Shown here piece by piece: positions 2,197-35,480 of a stretch of 36,403 bases of DNA (the first letter of the stretch is position 1; every line of letters starts with the position of its first letter). The notes beneath the pieces were generated by a model. It made no database searches. It saw only the letters and a list, made by a program, of their open reading frames with translations, and was not told the origin of the DNA. The stretch lies in assembly GCA_022729795.1 (NCBI GenBank), contig DZBD01000007.1, forward strand, positions 1 through 36,403, written 5' to 3'. Source of the DNA: Sulfuricurvum sp. Its GTDB lineage: Bacteria > Campylobacterota > Campylobacteria > Campylobacterales > Sulfurimonadaceae. The position numbers were made by a program, and so were the translations under genes.

Positions 2197-2955
2197 ATGA
2201 TGAACAAGGCAAACGAGATATCGCATCAGACGAAGCTTTACGGTTACATAGGTGAACATGCCGGAGCTAGTAGGTTTAGTGCTGCACTCAACAAAATATT
2301 TAAACAAAACGGCGATAATGCCATGATGATTCCTATGAATATAAGAGCGGATGATTTTTATTTTACCCTGAGTAATATGAAAAAATCACATGTAAACGGT
2401 GCCGTTATTTCCAATGAATATGTTTATGATGTTGTAGCTATCGTTGATGAAGCAAGCGACTTGGTAAAAAGAAGCGGGATGTGTGATATTGTCTTGAGAG
2501 AGGGTGAAAAACTCAGAGGCGATATGTACGGCATACGGGTTTTAGTGGAGCATTTAAAAGATTTTAGGGTTTCAAAAATAGCACTAATCGGCACAACTCC
2601 ACATGCCAAAGCTTTTGCGTTCTTGGCATGTGGATTTGAAGTGAGTTTTTTTAACGACAACCTTGAAGAGTTGATGCAGTTTACACAAGACGTGGAGTTA
2701 AACAATGCGGATTTGAACCGTTTGTCCACGGGAATTGATACCGATTTGTCGCACTTTGACGCAGTTTTAAATTTTTCAAACATGAGCAGTTTAGCAATGA
2801 TAAGCGGCTTATCTGCACACAATTTTGATATGAAAAATGAGAAAGAATATTCAGTCCTAAAAACAAGAGCAAAAGAACTTGAAAAAAAGTATACAAGTTT
2901 TGATGATATGATAGAAATATTTACGCAAAAAGCATATAAAATAATAAAAGGATAG
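2197..2955 (+). CDS. Shikimate-dehydrogenase-like (AroE-fold) protein, probably non-catalytic
   Basis: N-terminal KLYGYIGEHAGASRFSAALNKIF... and VKRSGMCDIVLREGEKLRGDMYGIRVLVEHL resemble AroE substrate and NTDG regions, but catalytic residues are not conserved. Confidence 0.55.
   Translation: MMNKANEISHQTKLYGYIGEHAGASRFSAALNKIFKQNGDNAMMIPMNIRADDFYFTLSNMKKSHVNGAVISNEYVYDVVAIVDEASDLVKRSGMCDIVLREGEKLRGDMYGIRVLVEHLKDFRVSKIALIGTTPHAKAFAFLACGFEVSFFNDNLEELMQFTQDVELNNADLNRLSTGIDTDLSHFDAVLNFSNMSSLAMISGLSAHNFDMKNEKEYSVLKTRAKELEKKYTSFDDMIEIFTQKAYKIIKG
2599..2633. repeat. Inverted pair of the GGCATGTGG motif inside a coding region
   Basis: CCACATGCCAA (2599-2609) and TTGGCATGTGG (2623-2633), 11-nt perfect arms. 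Confidence 0.9.
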
Positions 2956-2959
2956 TTGT

Positions 2960-3466
2960 ATGAATAGAGAAGATTTAAGTGATTTAAGAGCAGAATTTGA
3001 CAAGTTTGTAAGCCAAAAATGTTCACTTGACCAAGATGAAAGCGGAGCAAAAAATCCCGATGCCGGAGATAAAGAGGATGAACAACCGGTTCCTCAGTTC
3101 GTCGATGCTCTTACCGCAAGACTTTTAGCACCGGCACACAGCGGAGTGTATTTGTCTCGCTTGGACATCAAAAGAATAGCAGAGGCTATTGATGAGTCTT
3201 TGCCGATTAAAGAACGGATCAAGATGATACGCTCTTTGTTTCGACATACGACAAGCAAAGAGTATCTCAGCGGTGCTTTTAATGAGATAGACAAACATAT
3301 CAACGGACGTATATTAATCTATCAAGAACTCTCACAAGCGTTCCCCTCATCCAAAACAATCTTTGATGAGAACATACTCAAAGCACAAAAAACTATGAGA
3401 ATGTTTAAGCAGATTATAGAAGATTTTGAAGAGATACAACCAACATCTGACCCGATATTCATTTAA
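2960..3466 (+). CDS. Conserved-looking hypothetical protein, 168 aa
   Basis: Full ORF 5 bp after the AroE-like gene, same strand; no family recognised. Confidence 0.75.
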   Translation: MNREDLSDLRAEFDKFVSQKCSLDQDESGAKNPDAGDKEDEQPVPQFVDALTARLLAPAHSGVYLSRLDIKRIAEAIDESLPIKERIKMIRSLFRHTTSKEYLSGAFNEIDKHINGRILIYQELSQAFPSSKTIFDENILKAQKTMRMFKQIIEDFEEIQPTSDPIFI

Positions 3467-3486
3467 AACGGCTTGGCATGTGGAAA

Positions 3487-4005
3487 TTAAAATACTTGAA
3501 GGTATAAAATTCCCTGCCATAAAAGTGAGCTCAGGATTCCTGCAGCAAAACCTGCAATTATATCATCTCCCATCACTCCCACTCCGCCTTTGGCTTCGCG
3601 GTCGATTCTCCCTATAATAGAGGGTTTTACAATATCGAAGTAACGAAAAAGTGCAAAAGATAAAAGTGCTTGAATCAAAAAGCCGTTTTGTAAATCACCT
3701 ACTTCGCCGAGTCCGACACTCATCGCCGGTGCGACGCTTAGGGCAAGCCACATGCCGGAAAGCTCATCGATAACTATTCTTTTATCATCGTGAATCCCGC
3801 TGAGTGCTTCATATTTATTGATAGATTTAATAGCGATGACACTGATTAAAATCGTTGCCATAAAAAGTGTTTGCACATCAAACAAGGTTAATATCCACAT
3901 GCCAAGAACTAAGGCTACTAAACTTCCTGCTGTTCCGGGTGCCTTTGGTGAGAGTCCGCTGTATCCTAGAGTGATAAAAAACCAATTCATATTTTTCCTT
4001 TGCAT
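3487..4005 (-). CDS. pgpA: Phosphatidylglycerophosphatase A
   Basis: LGYSGLSPKAPGTAGSL...VIDELSGMWLAL...DDIIAGFAAG is the PgpA signature. Confidence 0.93.
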   Translation of the reverse strand: MQRKNMNWFFITLGYSGLSPKAPGTAGSLVALVLGMWILTLFDVQTLFMATILISVIAIKSINKYEALSGIHDDKRIVIDELSGMWLALSVAPAMSVGLGEVGDLQNGFLIQALLSFALFRYFDIVKPSIIGRIDREAKGGVGVMGDDIIAGFAAGILSSLLWQGILYLQVF

Positions 4006-4006
4006 T

Positions 4007-5197
4007 TTAGGTGAGGGAGGTTGTTTGGTAGAGTTTCATCAATTCCTGATAAAAATCTTTTTCCGTATGTTCTTCTAAAAGCCCCTCAACAGGCAAAATA
4101 TCATAATAGAGTTTTTCAAGATTTTTAAATCTATTAGGGAGAATCTTGGAGAGTAAAAAAGCTGAAATCTCTTTTCTCATGAGTACGGCAGGAGGAAGCA
4201 GTCCCAATTCCAAAAGCTCTAAGATAGAGTCGGCATGATAGGCTGTTTGATGGTGCTGGCCGTGCGGGCAGGTGTTTTTACTGACTAGAGTCGTACATTT
4301 ATCACAGTAAACATATTCGCTTGCTATCTCTATCTCTATATCGATTCCGACTACTTTGTCTATGATAGATTTGTTGGAGTTGCAGTCATAGAACATTCCC
4401 AATCCTGCGTGATTTCTGCCGACGGTTAAACGGTCGCATCCATAATTTTTTGCAACGATTGCATCAATGATAATTTCATTATATCCTGCAAATATATAAC
4501 TGTTTTCGATAGGAACAATCACTACGCGGTTTTTTGGCAAAAAATTATTGACAAAGAATTCTAAGGTTTCTTTTCTTGTCTCATAACTTAAATTTGCAGT
4601 GTGATAAGGCTTGAGCAAAAATATTACGAGTAAATCCGTAGTCTCTAAAGTTTGGCGAATAAGTTTTTCATGCGCACGGTGGAGTGGATTGACTGCCATA
4701 AACAGTGAACTTGTGTGTTTTGCATCTATTAATTTTTTTGCATCTTCAATTATTTTGATATTTTCGTTTTTATGCTGTTTGATAAATGTATATTCGCCGC
4801 TCAGCGCCCACGAACCAAGTCTTTTGATGGTAGCCATTACACCGGGATGACTTGTATCGTCTGTCCCGTAAATATGTCTTGCCCGCTCTTTAGGATCTAT
4901 TTTGAAGGTTTCATCTACAATTAATGTAGCAAAAGGGATATTTTCACAAAGAATAGTAACCTCTTCTGATTTTTTTAAGGACTTTAAAACTTCCTCATTC
5001 ATTTTCCCCGACGGTGCTAAAAGAAAAGGAAAAGGAAACGTTTTGCCATGGACAAGACCCGTTTTCAAAACCTCTTCACTCTCTTTTTTGCCCATGAGGG
5101 AGGTGACGGGATTGAGCAAACCGTCTTTGACTAGTTCTAATGCAGAAGCAGCTTCTCTATCTATAAAAAGAGTTTTATTTTTTCTTGATGATGTCAT
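4007..5197 (-). CDS. sat: Sulfate adenylyltransferase (ATP sulfurylase) family protein
   Basis: NPLHRAHEKLIR, VGRNHAGLGMFYD and C-terminal YCDKC...NTCPHG; next to pgpA. Confidence 0.88.
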   Translation of the reverse strand: MTSSRKNKTLFIDREAASALELVKDGLLNPVTSLMGKKESEEVLKTGLVHGKTFPFPFLLAPSGKMNEEVLKSLKKSEEVTILCENIPFATLIVDETFKIDPKERARHIYGTDDTSHPGVMATIKRLGSWALSGEYTFIKQHKNENIKIIEDAKKLIDAKHTSSLFMAVNPLHRAHEKLIRQTLETTDLLVIFLLKPYHTANLSYETRKETLEFFVNNFLPKNRVVIVPIENSYIFAGYNEIIIDAIVAKNYGCDRLTVGRNHAGLGMFYDCNSNKSIIDKVVGIDIEIEIASEYVYCDKCTTLVSKNTCPHGQHHQTAYHADSILELLELGLLPPAVLMRKEISAFLLSKILPNRFKNLEKLYYDILPVEGLLEEHTEKDFYQELMKLYQTTSLT

Positions 5198-6074
5198 ATT
5201 TTTTTCGTTTTTCCCATAAACTTTTACGGGAGATTCCTAGTTTTTTTGAAAGTTCCGTATCGGGGAATTTATTTTGATAGTTTAAAACAATAAATTTGAC
5301 ATAATCTTCAATAGGTAAAATATCACCTTTATCAAAGATATTATTTTCACTCTTAATTTCCAAAATAGAATATTCAGAGTCATCAATTTTTTCGCTACTG
5401 GCAATAATTGCTTTTTTACCAGCAAGAAGCTCAATCAAAGATTTTCTTTCACTTTTTTTTAGAATTTGATAATCAATAATATAGATTACACAATTCTGAG
5501 GGATAGAATCTATTTGGGCTATTGCTTTGGGATCGCAAAGTGTTAAAAAATGGATAGACAAATTCTTTTTTGCGGCATATTCAAAGGCAAAAGCATCCGC
5601 ATATTTCTGAAAGCTTGAAGAGATAAAGAGCGGGAGTTCTACGGCATCATAATTGTAACTGTTAGGGGCACTTGCAAAAGTATGTGTCAAATATTTCTCA
5701 TACGCTTCGTTTCTTTTTTTGAGTTTTTCATAATCTTGATAATGGTCAATTTTTCTTACGAGCTCTTCTATCATAAACGGCTTTAATATATAGTCTTTTG
5801 CCCCTGCGCTCAAGGGCTTGGACACTGTGTCGTTGCTTATATAAGAGACCATAAGGATGACAATAGATTTTTTAAAAGTTTCAATAACAGGGTTGAAATC
5901 TTGTCCGTTAATATTGGTAGAGAGTAAAACTACATCATAATTGGTACTTTTAATTGCATCACGCGTCGACGTGCACATCTCACACACATGCCCGAGTTCT
6001 CCAAGTTTAGTTGCTATGCTTTGTGCAAGATAAACTTCATTTTCTATAATTAGTATTTTCAAATTTGTGTCCAA
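5175..6074 (-). CDS. Atypical orphan response regulator, HP1021/CemR (Cj1608)-like
   Basis: N-terminal receiver with Ser where the phospho-acceptor Asp is expected (YDVVLLSTNI), C-terminal Fis-type HTH (ELSKKLGISRKSLWEKRKKY), adjacent to ispDF as in Helicobacter/Campylobacter. Confidence 0.8.
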   Translation of the reverse strand: MDTNLKILIIENEVYLAQSIATKLGELGHVCEMCTSTRDAIKSTNYDVVLLSTNINGQDFNPVIETFKKSIVILMVSYISNDTVSKPLSAGAKDYILKPFMIEELVRKIDHYQDYEKLKKRNEAYEKYLTHTFASAPNSYNYDAVELPLFISSSFQKYADAFAFEYAAKKNLSIHFLTLCDPKAIAQIDSIPQNCVIYIIDYQILKKSERKSLIELLAGKKAIIASSEKIDDSEYSILEIKSENNIFDKGDILPIEDYVKFIVLNYQNKFPDTELSKKLGISRKSLWEKRKKYDIIKKK

Positions 6075-8926: not shown

Positions 8927-10090
8927 ATGACGGAAGAAATCGTAAAATCAGCACTTTCAAAAGTTTTATATCCAGGTTTTACTAAGGATATCGTAACTTT
9001 TGGATTTGTAAATAGTATCGTTATAGATGGTGATAATGTTAGTTTTAATGTAGAAATAACTTCAAGTGCTCCGGAAGTTGCATTACAAATAAAAGACGAT
9101 GCAATCACAGAATTAAAGGCGGTAGGTGCGGGAAATGTTTCTGCAAATATCATCTCTCCGAAAATGCCAAAAGAGAGTTCATCTAAGGGGAAAAATATTG
9201 CTCCTCAAGTGAAAAACTTCTTGATGGTAAGTTCGGGCAAGGGCGGAGTCGGTAAATCGACTACATCCGTAAATATTGCTATCGCACTTGCAGCGCAGGG
9301 GAAAAAAGTGGGTCTTTTGGATGCCGATATTTATGGCCCAAATATTCCTCGTATGATGGGTATTGACGATATCAAGCCTGAAGTAAACGGAAATAAAGTC
9401 CTTCCAATTAAAGCGTATGGAATCGAAGTGATGTCTATGGGTTCATTGATGGAACCGGGTCAGTCTTTAATCTGGCGTGGAGCTATGATAATGAAAGCTA
9501 TCGAGCAATTTTTAAGAGATATTTTATGGTCTGAATTAGATGTTTTGGTTATCGATATGCCTCCGGGAACAGGGGATGCACAGCTTACTTTAGCCCAAAG
9601 CGTACCCGTAACTGCAGGTCTTACCGTAACTACGCCTCAGGGTGTTTCGCTTGATGATTCTCGCCGTTCGTTGGATATGTTTAGAAAATTGCATATTCCA
9701 ATTGCAGGTATTATTGAGAATATGAGCGGCTTTATTGCTCCCGATACCGGAGTAGAATACGATATTTTCGGTAAAGGAACGACGCAGCCTATGGCTGATG
9801 AGTTCAATACAAAAATTATTGCAGAAATTCCAATTGAATCAAGTATCCGCATAGGCGGAGACGACGGTAAACCTATTACCTTTGTAGCGCCTAGTTCTGA
9901 GAGTGCAAAAAGATATATGGCTGCCGCTGAATCTATCTGGGCTACTATAGAAGAGATTAATGCAAACGGCGGCGTGGACAATCAAGCCGTGCAACCTACA
10001 ACGGCTCCGGGCGTGAGTGCATGTTCAACTCCAAAACCTGCTCCTAAAGCAAGTGATGAGAGTTGCGGTACGGGATGTGGCTGTCACTAA
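8927..10090 (+). CDS. mrp: Mrp/NBP35-family Fe-S cluster carrier ATPase
   Basis: SSGKGGVGKSTTSVNIAIALA deviant Walker A, MPPGTGDAQLTLAQ, C-terminal CGTGCGCH. Confidence 0.95.
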   Translation: MTEEIVKSALSKVLYPGFTKDIVTFGFVNSIVIDGDNVSFNVEITSSAPEVALQIKDDAITELKAVGAGNVSANIISPKMPKESSSKGKNIAPQVKNFLMVSSGKGGVGKSTTSVNIAIALAAQGKKVGLLDADIYGPNIPRMMGIDDIKPEVNGNKVLPIKAYGIEVMSMGSLMEPGQSLIWRGAMIMKAIEQFLRDILWSELDVLVIDMPPGTGDAQLTLAQSVPVTAGLTVTTPQGVSLDDSRRSLDMFRKLHIPIAGIIENMSGFIAPDTGVEYDIFGKGTTQPMADEFNTKIIAEIPIESSIRIGGDDGKPITFVAPSSESAKRYMAAAESIWATIEEINANGGVDNQAVQPTTAPGVSACSTPKPAPKASDESCGTGCGCH

Positions 10091-10104
10091 TGTGACAACT
10101 GCAA

Positions 10105-10140
10105 TTTCCACATGCCACGGCATGTGGAAATCTTATTTTT
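10105..10140. terminator. Probable intrinsic terminator built from two inverted copies of the GGCATGTGG motif
   Basis: ATTTCCACATGCC-ac-GGCATGTGGAAAT (13-nt perfect arms) followed by CTTATTTTTTTT, between the convergent mrp and GGDEF genes. Confidence 0.75.
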
Positions 10141-10141
10141 T

Positions 10142-11986
10142 TTAAAATTCTTCGCTCTCAAACATATCTGCAGTAAATTCTACTATTTTATTTCTACCTG
10201 TATTTTTAGCACGGTATAAAGCCGTATCGGCATACTTGATACATTTCCAGATACTATCCCCGTCTGTAGGAAATCTTGCAATACCGATACTCATTGTTTT
10301 TTGCATTGTTTTACCCTCACCGACATCGAAAATAAGGTTTCCAAAGGCAGAGTGAATTTTTTGCGCTACTTTCAGTGCACCCTCTTGGCTTGCATTATGA
10401 AGTAGAACTATAAATTCTTCTCCCCCGTATCGAATAGCAAGGTCTGCTCCGCGAATATTGTCTTTGAGTACGGATGCAATCTCTATAATTACTTTGTCCC
10501 CCATATCATGACCATAAGTGTCATTTACCATTTTAAACCAATCTACATCGAGCATCATTACACTATATTTTTGGTCAAGTCTTTGTGCCTGACTCATCAG
10601 CTGATCTATAAACTCTTCTAAAAATCTTCTGTTATAAAGTCCGGTCATTCCATCGCGCAAGGAGGTATCGCGTAATTTATCCATTAAAATTCTGCTCTCA
10701 ATAACAGGTTTTGTAGCTTCAAGATAGTTTTTAATACTTGGGATGTGCGCATTTACAGCAGATATTTCATTGTCATCTTTTGTCGTAACAGAGATAATAA
10801 GTGAGGCATCGTTATTAATGACAAAGGGGATACAAATATATTTTAAGTCTTTTGCATCACATGATTGGCAAAGATTAATAAATTCAGTGGAGATAACATC
10901 TGTTTTTGTTCTATATGCTCTACATTGCATAGCGTCTTGATCTACGTGTTTCAGGCATATGCTATCACCTTGGCTAATATAGATGAGAGTTCGTGCGGCT
11001 GATTGATTATTGACCTCATACAATGCGAAATGTTGAATTTTATATTTTATTTTCAGTATGTCGATAATTCTTTTATAAACAAGATTTTTTGATGAATCGA
11101 GTTCTATTGTTTTTTTGAACTTATAGATGTCGGAGAGTTCCCCTATAATTGTTTTGGCTTCATAAAGAGGATCGGAAGATGATGTGCACCCCTGCGGTAT
11201 AAAAGTGGAAAGGTCGTGCTTAATGGTTCCAAAAGTTTCTTGCATCTTGGAAAAAAGAGTATTGAGGTGTTTGATTACCTGTTGCGCATCGCCGCCGCTT
11301 ACACTGGATGTAAAATTATAGGTAAAATCTCCTCTGTATGCTTTTTTGATCCCGTTTTGCATATTGGAGAAGAGTTTAATATAGGGAGCGATATAGTGAT
11401 TTATTAGAAAAAGAACAATGACTAAAAAAAGCATATTGATTCCAAAAATCTTTAGTATTGTAAGAAGTCCCGTATTTCTCATAGCGCTTATATCAAATTC
11501 CATGCTGATTGCACCTAGAGTATCCCCTTTTTTGACATCATGACAGCTCAGACAGTTGGGTGTGCCGGTTATTGTTGCTTTATAAGGGATGCTCACCCTT
11601 AAATATATTTTGTCTGTATGCTCAATGACTTTTTGTACCATCTCACCTGTTTCTAAAACTTTTGTATCTATGGCATCGCGGATTGTTTCGTTTGCAAATC
11701 CCTCACCGTATTGTTTTTTGACATTATCGCTTCGCACCAGCCAAAGAGATTTAATATCATCATTCGATGATATTTGATCTAAAAAATATTGTCTTTTATC
11801 CATCATACCATTGACCATATGCGCCGTGAGACCGTCTTTTACTATAGTTGCAGCCATTTTCGATTTTTCAACCGCACTGTTAATGCTGTATTCCCTGAAG
11901 TTGAGCGAGGTGTTGATAATTGTCGCGGTGGTTAAGCCAAGAAGCATTAGAGCAACGATAAAAAGAAGTTTAAATTTTGTTTGCAT
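10142..11986 (-). CDS. Membrane diguanylate cyclase with periplasmic CxxCH sensor domain
   Basis: TM segments, GTPNCLSCHDVKKGD between them, cytoplasmic GAF-like region, RYGGEEF active site. Confidence 0.92.
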   Translation of the reverse strand: MQTKFKLLFIVALMLLGLTTATIINTSLNFREYSINSAVEKSKMAATIVKDGLTAHMVNGMMDKRQYFLDQISSNDDIKSLWLVRSDNVKKQYGEGFANETIRDAIDTKVLETGEMVQKVIEHTDKIYLRVSIPYKATITGTPNCLSCHDVKKGDTLGAISMEFDISAMRNTGLLTILKIFGINMLFLVIVLFLINHYIAPYIKLFSNMQNGIKKAYRGDFTYNFTSSVSGGDAQQVIKHLNTLFSKMQETFGTIKHDLSTFIPQGCTSSSDPLYEAKTIIGELSDIYKFKKTIELDSSKNLVYKRIIDILKIKYKIQHFALYEVNNQSAARTLIYISQGDSICLKHVDQDAMQCRAYRTKTDVISTEFINLCQSCDAKDLKYICIPFVINNDASLIISVTTKDDNEISAVNAHIPSIKNYLEATKPVIESRILMDKLRDTSLRDGMTGLYNRRFLEEFIDQLMSQAQRLDQKYSVMMLDVDWFKMVNDTYGHDMGDKVIIEIASVLKDNIRGADLAIRYGGEEFIVLLHNASQEGALKVAQKIHSAFGNLIFDVGEGKTMQKTMSIGIARFPTDGDSIWKCIKYADTALYRAKNTGRNKIVEFTADMFESEEF

Positions 11987-12062: not shown

Positions 12063-13877
12063 TTATTCTACGGTTACACTTTTTGCAAGATTTCTCGGCA
12101 TGTCTACATCATTGCCGAGTCTGATTGAAATTTCAAGCGCTAGAAGCTGAATGACAACCATCATCTCAAAAAACTCCTGCATATAGTCTTGGCATGTGGA
12201 AATTTGTATAAAATCATCCGCCTTATCAAACTCTAGCGGACTGATTGCACAGATTGTAGAATCTCTTGCGCTTAATTCCTCTACATTGCTTTTTGCTTTT
12301 TCATACAAAAGATGTTGCGGAAGAAGTGCAATAGTGAAGAGCTCAGGATCTGCAAGTGCGATAGGACCATGTTTCATCTCACCCGAAGGATACCCCTCGG
12401 CATGAAGATAGGAAATCTCTTTGAGTTTGAGAGCACCTTCAAGTGCAAGCGGATAAAATATATCGCGTCCGATAAAGAAAAAACCATGCCCGTGCAAGTA
12501 TCTTTTGGAGAGTCTTTTGATTTTTTCATGCATGCTGTCTGCCACTTTGACACAGACCGGAATCTCTCTTAAGAGTGTTATTTGTCTTGCAATTTCGCCT
12601 GCTTCTAAAGAACCTCTGAGTTTTGCGATATAAAGACTGAGCATCCAAAATACTGTTACCTGCGTGGCAAAAGCTTTTGTAGAGGCAACCCCTTTTTCTA
12701 TGCCGGCTCTCGTTAATATACTAGCATCTGCTAAACGAACCATAGAGGAGTTATCAACATTACAAATAACCAAAGTTTTCAAACCTGCATTTTTGGCCAT
12801 TTTGAGAGTTTCAAGCGTATCGGCTGTTTCTCCGCTTTGAGAAATGACGACAAAGAGCGTATCTTTGGACATAATAGGCTCTCTGTATCTGAATTCACTC
12901 GCTACTTCAACGGAGGTTTTTATTTTTGAATACCTCTCAAAAAGGTAAGTAGCACTCAGAGCCGAATGATAGGAAGTTCCGCAGGCACAAAGTTTAATCT
13001 CATTGATTCCGTCAAAAAGTCCATTCTCTAGTTCGTCAAAAAGTATCTCTTCAACTCCTAATCTTCCCATGAGCGTATCGGCGATCACGGTAGTTTGTTC
13101 GTATATCTCTTTTTCCATGAAAAATCTGTATCCGTCTTTTTGAGCGGAGAGTTTATTTTGGGTAAGTTTGGAAAAATGAGGCTGTTTTTGATTGTCCATT
13201 TTGTCGAGAATAAAGATTTCATCTGCAGTTACATAACCATAATCACCGTCTTCAAAATAGTTTACATCGCTGCAATGCCCAATAAGAGGTGTGTCCGAAG
13301 AGGCAAAATATTTTTCGTTTTCAGCGTTGATACCTACTAACATAGGAGAGCCTTGTTTGGCAAAAAAGATAGTTTTTTCTTCCTCTTTCGTGACAAGCAA
13401 AATGGCAAATGCACCCTCTAATTCTTTAACGGTTTTACCAAAGGCTTCAAAAGGATTTGCAGCAGATTTTAAATTTTTTTCAAACTGATGGACAATAACT
13501 TCAGTATCTGTTTGGCTTAAAAAAACAACTCCTTCATCCATCAACTCTTTTTTTAGTTTGGCATAATTTTCGATAATACCGTTATGTACGACATAGGAGC
13601 TGTTTCCCAAATGGGGATGCGCATTAAGTTCGGTAGGCTTTCCGTGTGTAGCCCAGCGTGTGTGACCGATACCTACTGCAAATTTGTCTGTTATGAAGTC
13701 TTTCGTCTTTTCTTCTAAATTGATGAGTTTGCCCACAGCTTTAAAACTCTCAAAATCATTATCTTGAAGTACGGCTATCCCTGCAGAATCATACCCTCTG
13801 TATTCAAGCTCTTTAAGCCCCTCTAGCAAAATTTCTTTTGTATTTTTATTTCCAAGATATCCGACGATTCCGCACAT
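12063..13877 (-). CDS. glmS: Glutamine-fructose-6-phosphate aminotransferase (isomerizing)
   Basis: MCGIVGYLGNKNTKEILLEGLKELEYRGYDSAGIAV..., two SIS domains, C-terminal DMPRNLAKSVTVE. Confidence 0.98.
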   Translation of the reverse strand: MCGIVGYLGNKNTKEILLEGLKELEYRGYDSAGIAVLQDNDFESFKAVGKLINLEEKTKDFITDKFAVGIGHTRWATHGKPTELNAHPHLGNSSYVVHNGIIENYAKLKKELMDEGVVFLSQTDTEVIVHQFEKNLKSAANPFEAFGKTVKELEGAFAILLVTKEEEKTIFFAKQGSPMLVGINAENEKYFASSDTPLIGHCSDVNYFEDGDYGYVTADEIFILDKMDNQKQPHFSKLTQNKLSAQKDGYRFFMEKEIYEQTTVIADTLMGRLGVEEILFDELENGLFDGINEIKLCACGTSYHSALSATYLFERYSKIKTSVEVASEFRYREPIMSKDTLFVVISQSGETADTLETLKMAKNAGLKTLVICNVDNSSMVRLADASILTRAGIEKGVASTKAFATQVTVFWMLSLYIAKLRGSLEAGEIARQITLLREIPVCVKVADSMHEKIKRLSKRYLHGHGFFFIGRDIFYPLALEGALKLKEISYLHAEGYPSGEMKHGPIALADPELFTIALLPQHLLYEKAKSNVEELSARDSTICAISPLEFDKADDFIQISTCQDYMQEFFEMMVVIQLLALEISIRLGNDVDMPRNLAKSVTVE

Positions 13878-28619: not shown

Positions 28620-29716
28620 TAAAAGTAAGCCATCTCACGTCGGCGCATCCACGGTATGACACAAGAATTTTTGTAAAAGAGTGTTGTTCACTTGCACATG
28701 CCGGATATGAAGTTTCTCTTATTGTTGCGGACGGTTTGGGTGATGAGATAAAAGAGGGTGTTTATTTTTATGATGTTGGCAGATTGCAAGGGCGTCTGAA
28801 CAGAATCTTTAAAACCACTCAAAAAGTTTTAGATAAAGCGATAGAACTCAAGAGTGATATTTACCATTTTCATGACCCTGAGCTTATTCCCGTTGGATTG
28901 AAGCTCAAAAAACTTGGATACAAGGTGATTTTTGATTCCCATGAAGATGTCCCCAAACAAATTTTGGGGAAGCACTATTTGAATAAATATATCTCAAAAA
29001 TCCTCTCAAAAAGTTTTGAACTCTATGAAAACTACGCTTGTAAAAAATTTGATGCCGTTATCACCGCCACCGCATATATCAGGGATAAATTTTTACAAAT
29101 AAATAAAAACTCTATGGATATCTGTAATTTTCCCATCATCACCGAACTCTCCAACGACACTTTATGGGAAGAGAGACGGGATGAGGTTTGCTACATAGGC
29201 GCTATTGCCGAGGTTCGTGGCATCAAAGAGATTGTAAAAGCGATGGAATTTGTGGAGTGTGCCAGATTGAATCTTGCCGGCAAATTTGCCCAGAGCGATG
29301 TGGAAACTGAGGTGAAAACCTACAAGGGATGGAGCAGGGTAAATGAGCTTGGCTTTTTAGGACGTGAAGGAATTGCAGATGTTCTGAGTCATTCCAAAGT
29401 AGGTTTGGTAACTCTGCATCCTATCATAAACTATCAAGATGCCCTTCCCGTAAAGATGTTTGAATATATGCTCTCAGGGATGCCGGTCATCTCCTCAAAC
29501 ATCAAACTCTGGCAAGATATAGTAGAAGATGCGGCATGTGGAATCTGTGTCAATCCTTACAATCCACATGCCATAGCAGAGGCGATTACTTTTATAATAC
29601 AAAATCCACATGCCGCAAAAGAGATGGGTGAAAACGGCAAAAAAGCGGTGTTAGAAAAATACAACTGGGACAATGAAGAGAAAAAACTTTTGAAACTGTA
29701 TGAGAGTTTAGTTTGA
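28616..29716 (+). CDS. Glycosyltransferase family 4
   Basis: [37 protein letters not shown]..., [19 protein letters not shown]. Confidence 0.87.

Positions 29717-32062: not shown

Positions 32063-35480
<3,418 letters not shown>

Follow-up and report, generated by a model that had tools for sequence, protein, structure and literature searches.

A putative uptake-sequence-like word of a Sulfurimonas lineage is present as an inverted pair in the probable terminator of mrp

The window, that is, the whole stretch of 36,403 nucleotides that was analyzed, contains mrp and a gene encoding a GGDEF-domain protein, which are convergent. The 51-bp gap between them, reported in the first-pass annotation, was recovered from the ends of the two genes at positions 10090 and 10142. 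The gap harbors ATTTCCACATGCC-AC-GGCATGTGGAAAT (10104 to 10131), followed by CTTATTTTTTTT (10132 to 10143), a T run that shares bases with the stop codon of the GGDEF gene. The features of the junction are the following.

8927 to 10090, + strand: mrp, encoding a P-loop NTPase of the Mrp/NUBPL type, the gene that the terminator would serve (open reading frame, Pfam)
10104 to 10116, − strand: left arm of the hairpin, ATTTCCACATGCC, a copy of GGCATGTGGAAAT read on the opposite strand (sequence, motif matches)
10117 to 10118, no strand: AC spacer separating the two copies, with CACG as the loop in the RNA (sequence, RNA fold)
10119 to 10131, + strand: right arm of the hairpin, motif copy GGCATGTGGAAAT (sequence, motif matches)
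10132 to 10143, + strand: U-tract of the terminator, CTTATTTTTTTT (sequence, terminator scan)
10142 to 11986, − strand: gene for a GGDEF-domain protein, a diguanylate cyclase, convergent with mrp (open reading frame, Pfam)

The RNA of the gap was predicted to fold into a 12-bp stem closed by a 4-nt loop (−20 kcal/mol, z = −4.9), and none of the shuffled sequences was as stable. The U-tract directly follows this stable hairpin, downstream from a stop codon, and the 8 T out of 8 positions found after the 12-bp stem are the strongest run among the pairs described below. An independent terminator scan called the site on the + strand only. On the opposite strand, the sequence after the stem is TGCAGTTG, which is devoid of a T run, indicating by anatomy that the terminator serves mrp. 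Thus, assignment of the pair and its U-tract as the intrinsic terminator of mrp is well supported by the structure seen in the sequence, termination itself being predicted from it. Sequence, fold, and terminator scan therefore agree with the earlier proposal that two inverted motif copies act as a terminator in this gap; the description of the elements was exact, although the span given for them, 10105 to 10140, started one base late and ended three bases short.

The 13-mer GGCATGTGGAAAT was present in five exact copies in the window versus 0.02 expected and in 199 copies in the genome, where the reversed control gave none. Its 10-mer GGCATGTGGA was present in 840 copies in the 2.25-Mb host genome (410 and 430 on the two strands), again with none for the reversed control. 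In a 669-kb sample of this genome, most copies were intact, with 290 perfect 10-mers and 95 bearing one mismatch, whereas a Markov-3 control gave 1 and 25, respectively; the mismatch was at the ninth base in 60 of the 95. The full consensus deduced from the same sample was approximately CTTGGCATGTGGAAAT, with about 10 fixed and 6 biased positions and almost no information outside. Single copies were mostly located within called genes (212 of 240 in the sample, 98 sense and 114 antisense) and displayed a codon-frame bias, with one favored frame per strand. The window contains the following additional copies.

2598 to 2634, no strand: heads-in pair of 10-mers inside a gene, gap of 17 (pair scan)
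3475 to 3487, + strand: single exact motif copy (motif matches)
12191 to 12203, + strand: single exact copy, within a glmS-like gene (12063 to 13877, − strand) (motif matches, Pfam)
29533 to 29572, no strand: tails-in pair of 10-mers inside a gene, gap of 20 (pair scan)
35423 to 35435, + strand: single exact motif copy (motif matches)

The copy located in the glmS-like gene was in place at the same codons in the motif-bearing relatives L086, L095, L096, L124, and L145. Other relatives, including the motif-rich L089, had different codons at this site and aligned without insertion. This pattern argues for an origin of the copy by substitution, with retention or convergence, rather than by transposition.

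The genome-wide scan for further inverted pairs proposed in the annotation revealed 34 matches to heads-in pairs within 20 nt, corresponding to 33 distinct pairs. Pair statistics were obtained with the 669-kb sample, in which gene calling relied on a simple longest-ORF rule; about half of the sampled contigs had been picked for holding copies, which affects density more than placement. Within a distance of 20 nt, 25 inverted pairs (14 heads-in and 11 tails-in) were found versus 3 direct pairs. Random placement (1000 trials) gave a mean of 1.5 for both types, with maxima of 8 and 6, respectively. The inverted pairs were intergenic in 19 of 25 cases, though called genes account for 95% of the sample. 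Enrichment at gene 3' ends, which had also been proposed for verification, was observed: a pair was found in 15 of the 29 convergent gaps versus 2 of the 202 others, both of them among the 150 co-directional gaps and none among the 52 divergent ones (p = 7 × 10–14). Class-wide enrichment in T-tracts was not detected among the pairs, 7 of 17 having at least six T in eight positions on either side, versus 26% per position tested in control gaps. In the absence of such enrichment, the intrinsic-terminator assignment is well supported at the mrp site, and for the other pairs we only infer it.

The host is a Sulfurimonas, the named relatives identified by mrp being mostly of this genus, with identities of up to 92%. 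A first sample of relatives had suggested that the word was almost private to the host species. This view was corrected by a wider scan of 135 genomes of the genus, which contained 31 to 1302 copies of the 10-mer in 19 genomes and 0 to 13 copies, near background, in the others. A k-mer scan of sampled congeners revealed related words sharing a CATGT center. These were TACATGTAAA in G011 and G034, as well as in G055, which belongs to another family, TACATGTAGA in G006 and G032, and the intermediate word [AT][GA]CATGTG[GA]A in G036. Together with GGCATGTGGA, they have the appearance of lineage-specific dialects with a shared core, as found for uptake sequences. None of 22 further genomes scored was rich in both GGCATGTGGA and TACATGTAA. 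In a tree of Mrp, which as a single gene is weak for species history, the genomes containing TACATGTAA grouped together and those containing GGCATGTGGA were clustered without forming one clade. In relative G020 (L210 to L212), words of the CTCACGCA/CTGCGTGAG type were over-represented on both strands and may be another dispersed word.

The 3' end of mrp was also compared among relatives. A perfect inverted pair of the host's word (TTCCACATGCC...GGCATGTGGAA) was present in L089, and an imperfect pair in L096. In L106, L107, and L109, the paired word was their own, TACATGTA. The pair is faced by a GGDEF gene in L106 and L109, but not in L107 according to the gene call used. Most other relatives had unrelated hairpins at this position or none that was obvious. 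The mrp junction thus provides a natural experiment, with one terminator position occupied by different words according to lineage.

We consider it probable that GGCATGTGGA, in its full form approximately CTTGGCATGTGGAAAT, is an uptake-sequence-like motif of the host's Sulfurimonas lineage, that its paired copies are used as 3'-end signals, and that relatives use dialects of it. A surface DNA receptor belonging to a pilus or to a type-II-secretion-like machinery would prefer DNA bearing the word. Recombination of the imported DNA would spread and maintain copies that have arisen by point mutation, as the pattern of copies suggests, which would account for the hundreds of copies seen on either strand, most of them within genes. 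Copies arranged head-to-head or tail-to-tail just past gene ends would form hairpins used as 3'-end signals, and related species would follow the same scheme with words altered around the shared CATGT. Features of uptake sequences found for the word include copy numbers far above chance, occurrence on both strands without replication polarity, and inverted pairs at gene ends. The uptake-sequence-like role suggested by the annotation appears strengthened by our analysis of copy number, strand balance, codon-frame bias, the dialect-like words of relatives, and competence genes. Against this reading, known uptake sequences are not palindromes, whereas the TACATGTA form is one, and pairs of this form were only weakly associated with convergent gaps.

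The hairpin could also be a terminator made from a word serving as an intracellular chromosome signal, such as a Chi-like, FtsK-orienting, or nucleoid site, the pairs having been co-opted. Such words likewise reach hundreds of copies, and a polar word, TAAACGCAG, exists in some relatives. However, polarity along the replichore is the rule for Chi and FtsK-orienting sites, whereas GGCATGTGGA displayed no replichore strand skew of the Chi/KOPS type and was balanced between strands in every contig containing at least nine copies, unlike TAAACGCAG in G009. In addition, related Sulfurimonas lack GGCATGTGGA or have another word. We therefore regard a chromosome signal as unlikely. The word TAAACGCAG itself was enriched in the Sulfurimonas relatives G009, G014, G016, G023, G010, and G029 (128 to 782 copies, with small reversed controls). 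All of its listed copies in G009, from 0 to 1.29 Mb, were on the + strand. This polarity ruled out TAAACGCAG as a further dialect; from its distribution, it looks like a replication-polar word of the Chi or FtsK-orienting type.

A second alternative is that the word marks sites of modification or self-marking, in restriction-modification or another defence, or is an abundant palindrome similar to HIP1, the pairs being by-products. In favor of this, the TACATGTAA form is a palindrome, and its counts are very high in G011 and G055, reaching 1029 and 2573, respectively, with small reversed controls; since TTACATGTAA is its own complement, copies containing it are counted on both strands. This explanation is nonetheless improbable, as GGCATGTGGA is not palindromic and the inverted pairs at convergent gene ends are left unexplained. 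With about 10 fixed and 6 biased positions, the word is, to our knowledge, long for a methylase site. Cyanobacterial HIP1, for which a link to a methylase is known, provides a precedent for an abundant palindrome of this kind (PMC1939737). In the 2.8-Mb genome of G055, from another family of the order and thus outside Sulfurimonas, the 2573 hits to the near-palindrome TACATGTAA, counted per strand, had the consensus CTTTACATGTAAAG.

That the 25 pairs represent a family of miniature repeats, or cruciforms formed by the DNA itself, in insertion-tolerant convergent gaps, with the mrp site alone causing termination, is very improbable even though U-tracts are not enriched at the pairs and the pairs are located in very short gaps, because the flanks of the pairs have nothing in common beyond the word, unlike those of mobile-repeat copies, divergent gaps are also insertion-tolerant and contain none, and the run of 8 T comes right after the 12-bp stem at the mrp site.

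An uptake-sequence motif would require a machinery for natural transformation, which is present in the host, although its components are not specific to motif-bearing species. ComEC and DprA are encoded by contigs C99 and C101, respectively. ComEC was found in almost every relative, whether or not the word is present there, and hence only permits the uptake idea without discriminating. Ten pilin-like proteins were detected in the host as N_methyl matches, as well as three secretins, one clustered with an MshE-like ATPase and T2SSF, and another, GspD-like, adjoining a T2SSE ATPase. Contig C68 (L050, 1 to 9204) carries an MSHA-like pilus cluster comprising an MshEN/T2SSE ATPase, T2SSF, a secretin, and N_methyl proteins. 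This cluster is one place to look for a candidate sequence-reading pilin.

The putative system would work like the DUS of the Neisseriaceae, and our analysis recovered every feature of uptake sequences that could be tested. DUS occur as eight dialects sharing a CTG core, and their inverted pairs are tied to terminators (PMC3630211). As described there, DUS resemble the present motif in being dispersed, non-mobile words of 10 to 16 bp present in high copy on both strands and mostly within genes, in forming terminator-associated inverted pairs, and in having dialects with a small core, CTG in one case and CATGT in the other (PMC3630211). Copies number about 840 here versus 2,245 to 5,918 in those DUS dialects for which counts were compared (PMC3630211). 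The present motif differs from DUS by its unrelated sequence, its occurrence in a distant phylum, and the palindromic form found in some species. The DUS receptor is ComP; its putative counterpart here may be one of the candidate pilins. The USS of the Pasteurellaceae have a different word, AAGTGCGGT, and extra AT-tracts downstream, whereas the information in the present word does not extend further than about 12 bases from the start of the core. The two types of motifs are alike as abundant dispersed words present as opposed copies in terminators, terminators of Haemophilus influenzae often consisting of two opposed USS copies (PMC5217627). TerminatorNet, a 2026 survey of prokaryotic terminators, reported uptake words in up to 22–37% of the predicted terminators of some species, only for Neisseriaceae and Pasteurellaceae, with Sulfurimonas and Campylobacter absent from the text (PMC13020248). 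The mrp site is like these cases in harboring an uptake-like word inside a predicted terminator, in a host group outside those families (PMC13020248). In Campylobacter jejuni, methylation of its own DNA acts as a self-label at uptake (PMC8468864). The discrimination of self-DNA proposed here would likewise occur in the Campylobacterota, but the candidate label is an over-abundant long word rather than methylation (PMC8468864).

Sequence-labelled uptake has been described for two families of proteobacteria, and reports for other families were not found in the open literature. Searches of the same literature, subscription papers and preprints aside, revealed no report of uptake sequences for Sulfurimonas, Epsilonproteobacteria, Campylobacter, or Campylobacterota. 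The case appears evenly poised for a broader proposal, namely that Sulfurimonas and at least one other family of the Campylobacterales have a third, independently evolved system of sequence-labelled uptake, with several dialects that exclude one another, include a palindromic one, and may be barriers to gene exchange between species, and with terminators made from each lineage's own label at the same junction. If true, this third case, in a distant phylum and in a genus where different dialects are still in use, would allow one to ask how a label and its receptor change together and whether labels isolate species.

Two host contigs drew attention for the absence of motif copies. The first 20 kb of C117 (L067) contained none and encoded a major capsid protein of the crAss-like type, together with a weak match to the crAss muzzle protein. 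This contig looks, from its gene content, like that of a crAss-like phage and is possibly mis-binned, and its use as evidence that foreign DNA lacks the word was therefore dropped. Contig C116 (L066), also without a motif copy, contained a long open reading frame, Cas9-like by eye, adjoining a Cas1-like open reading frame.
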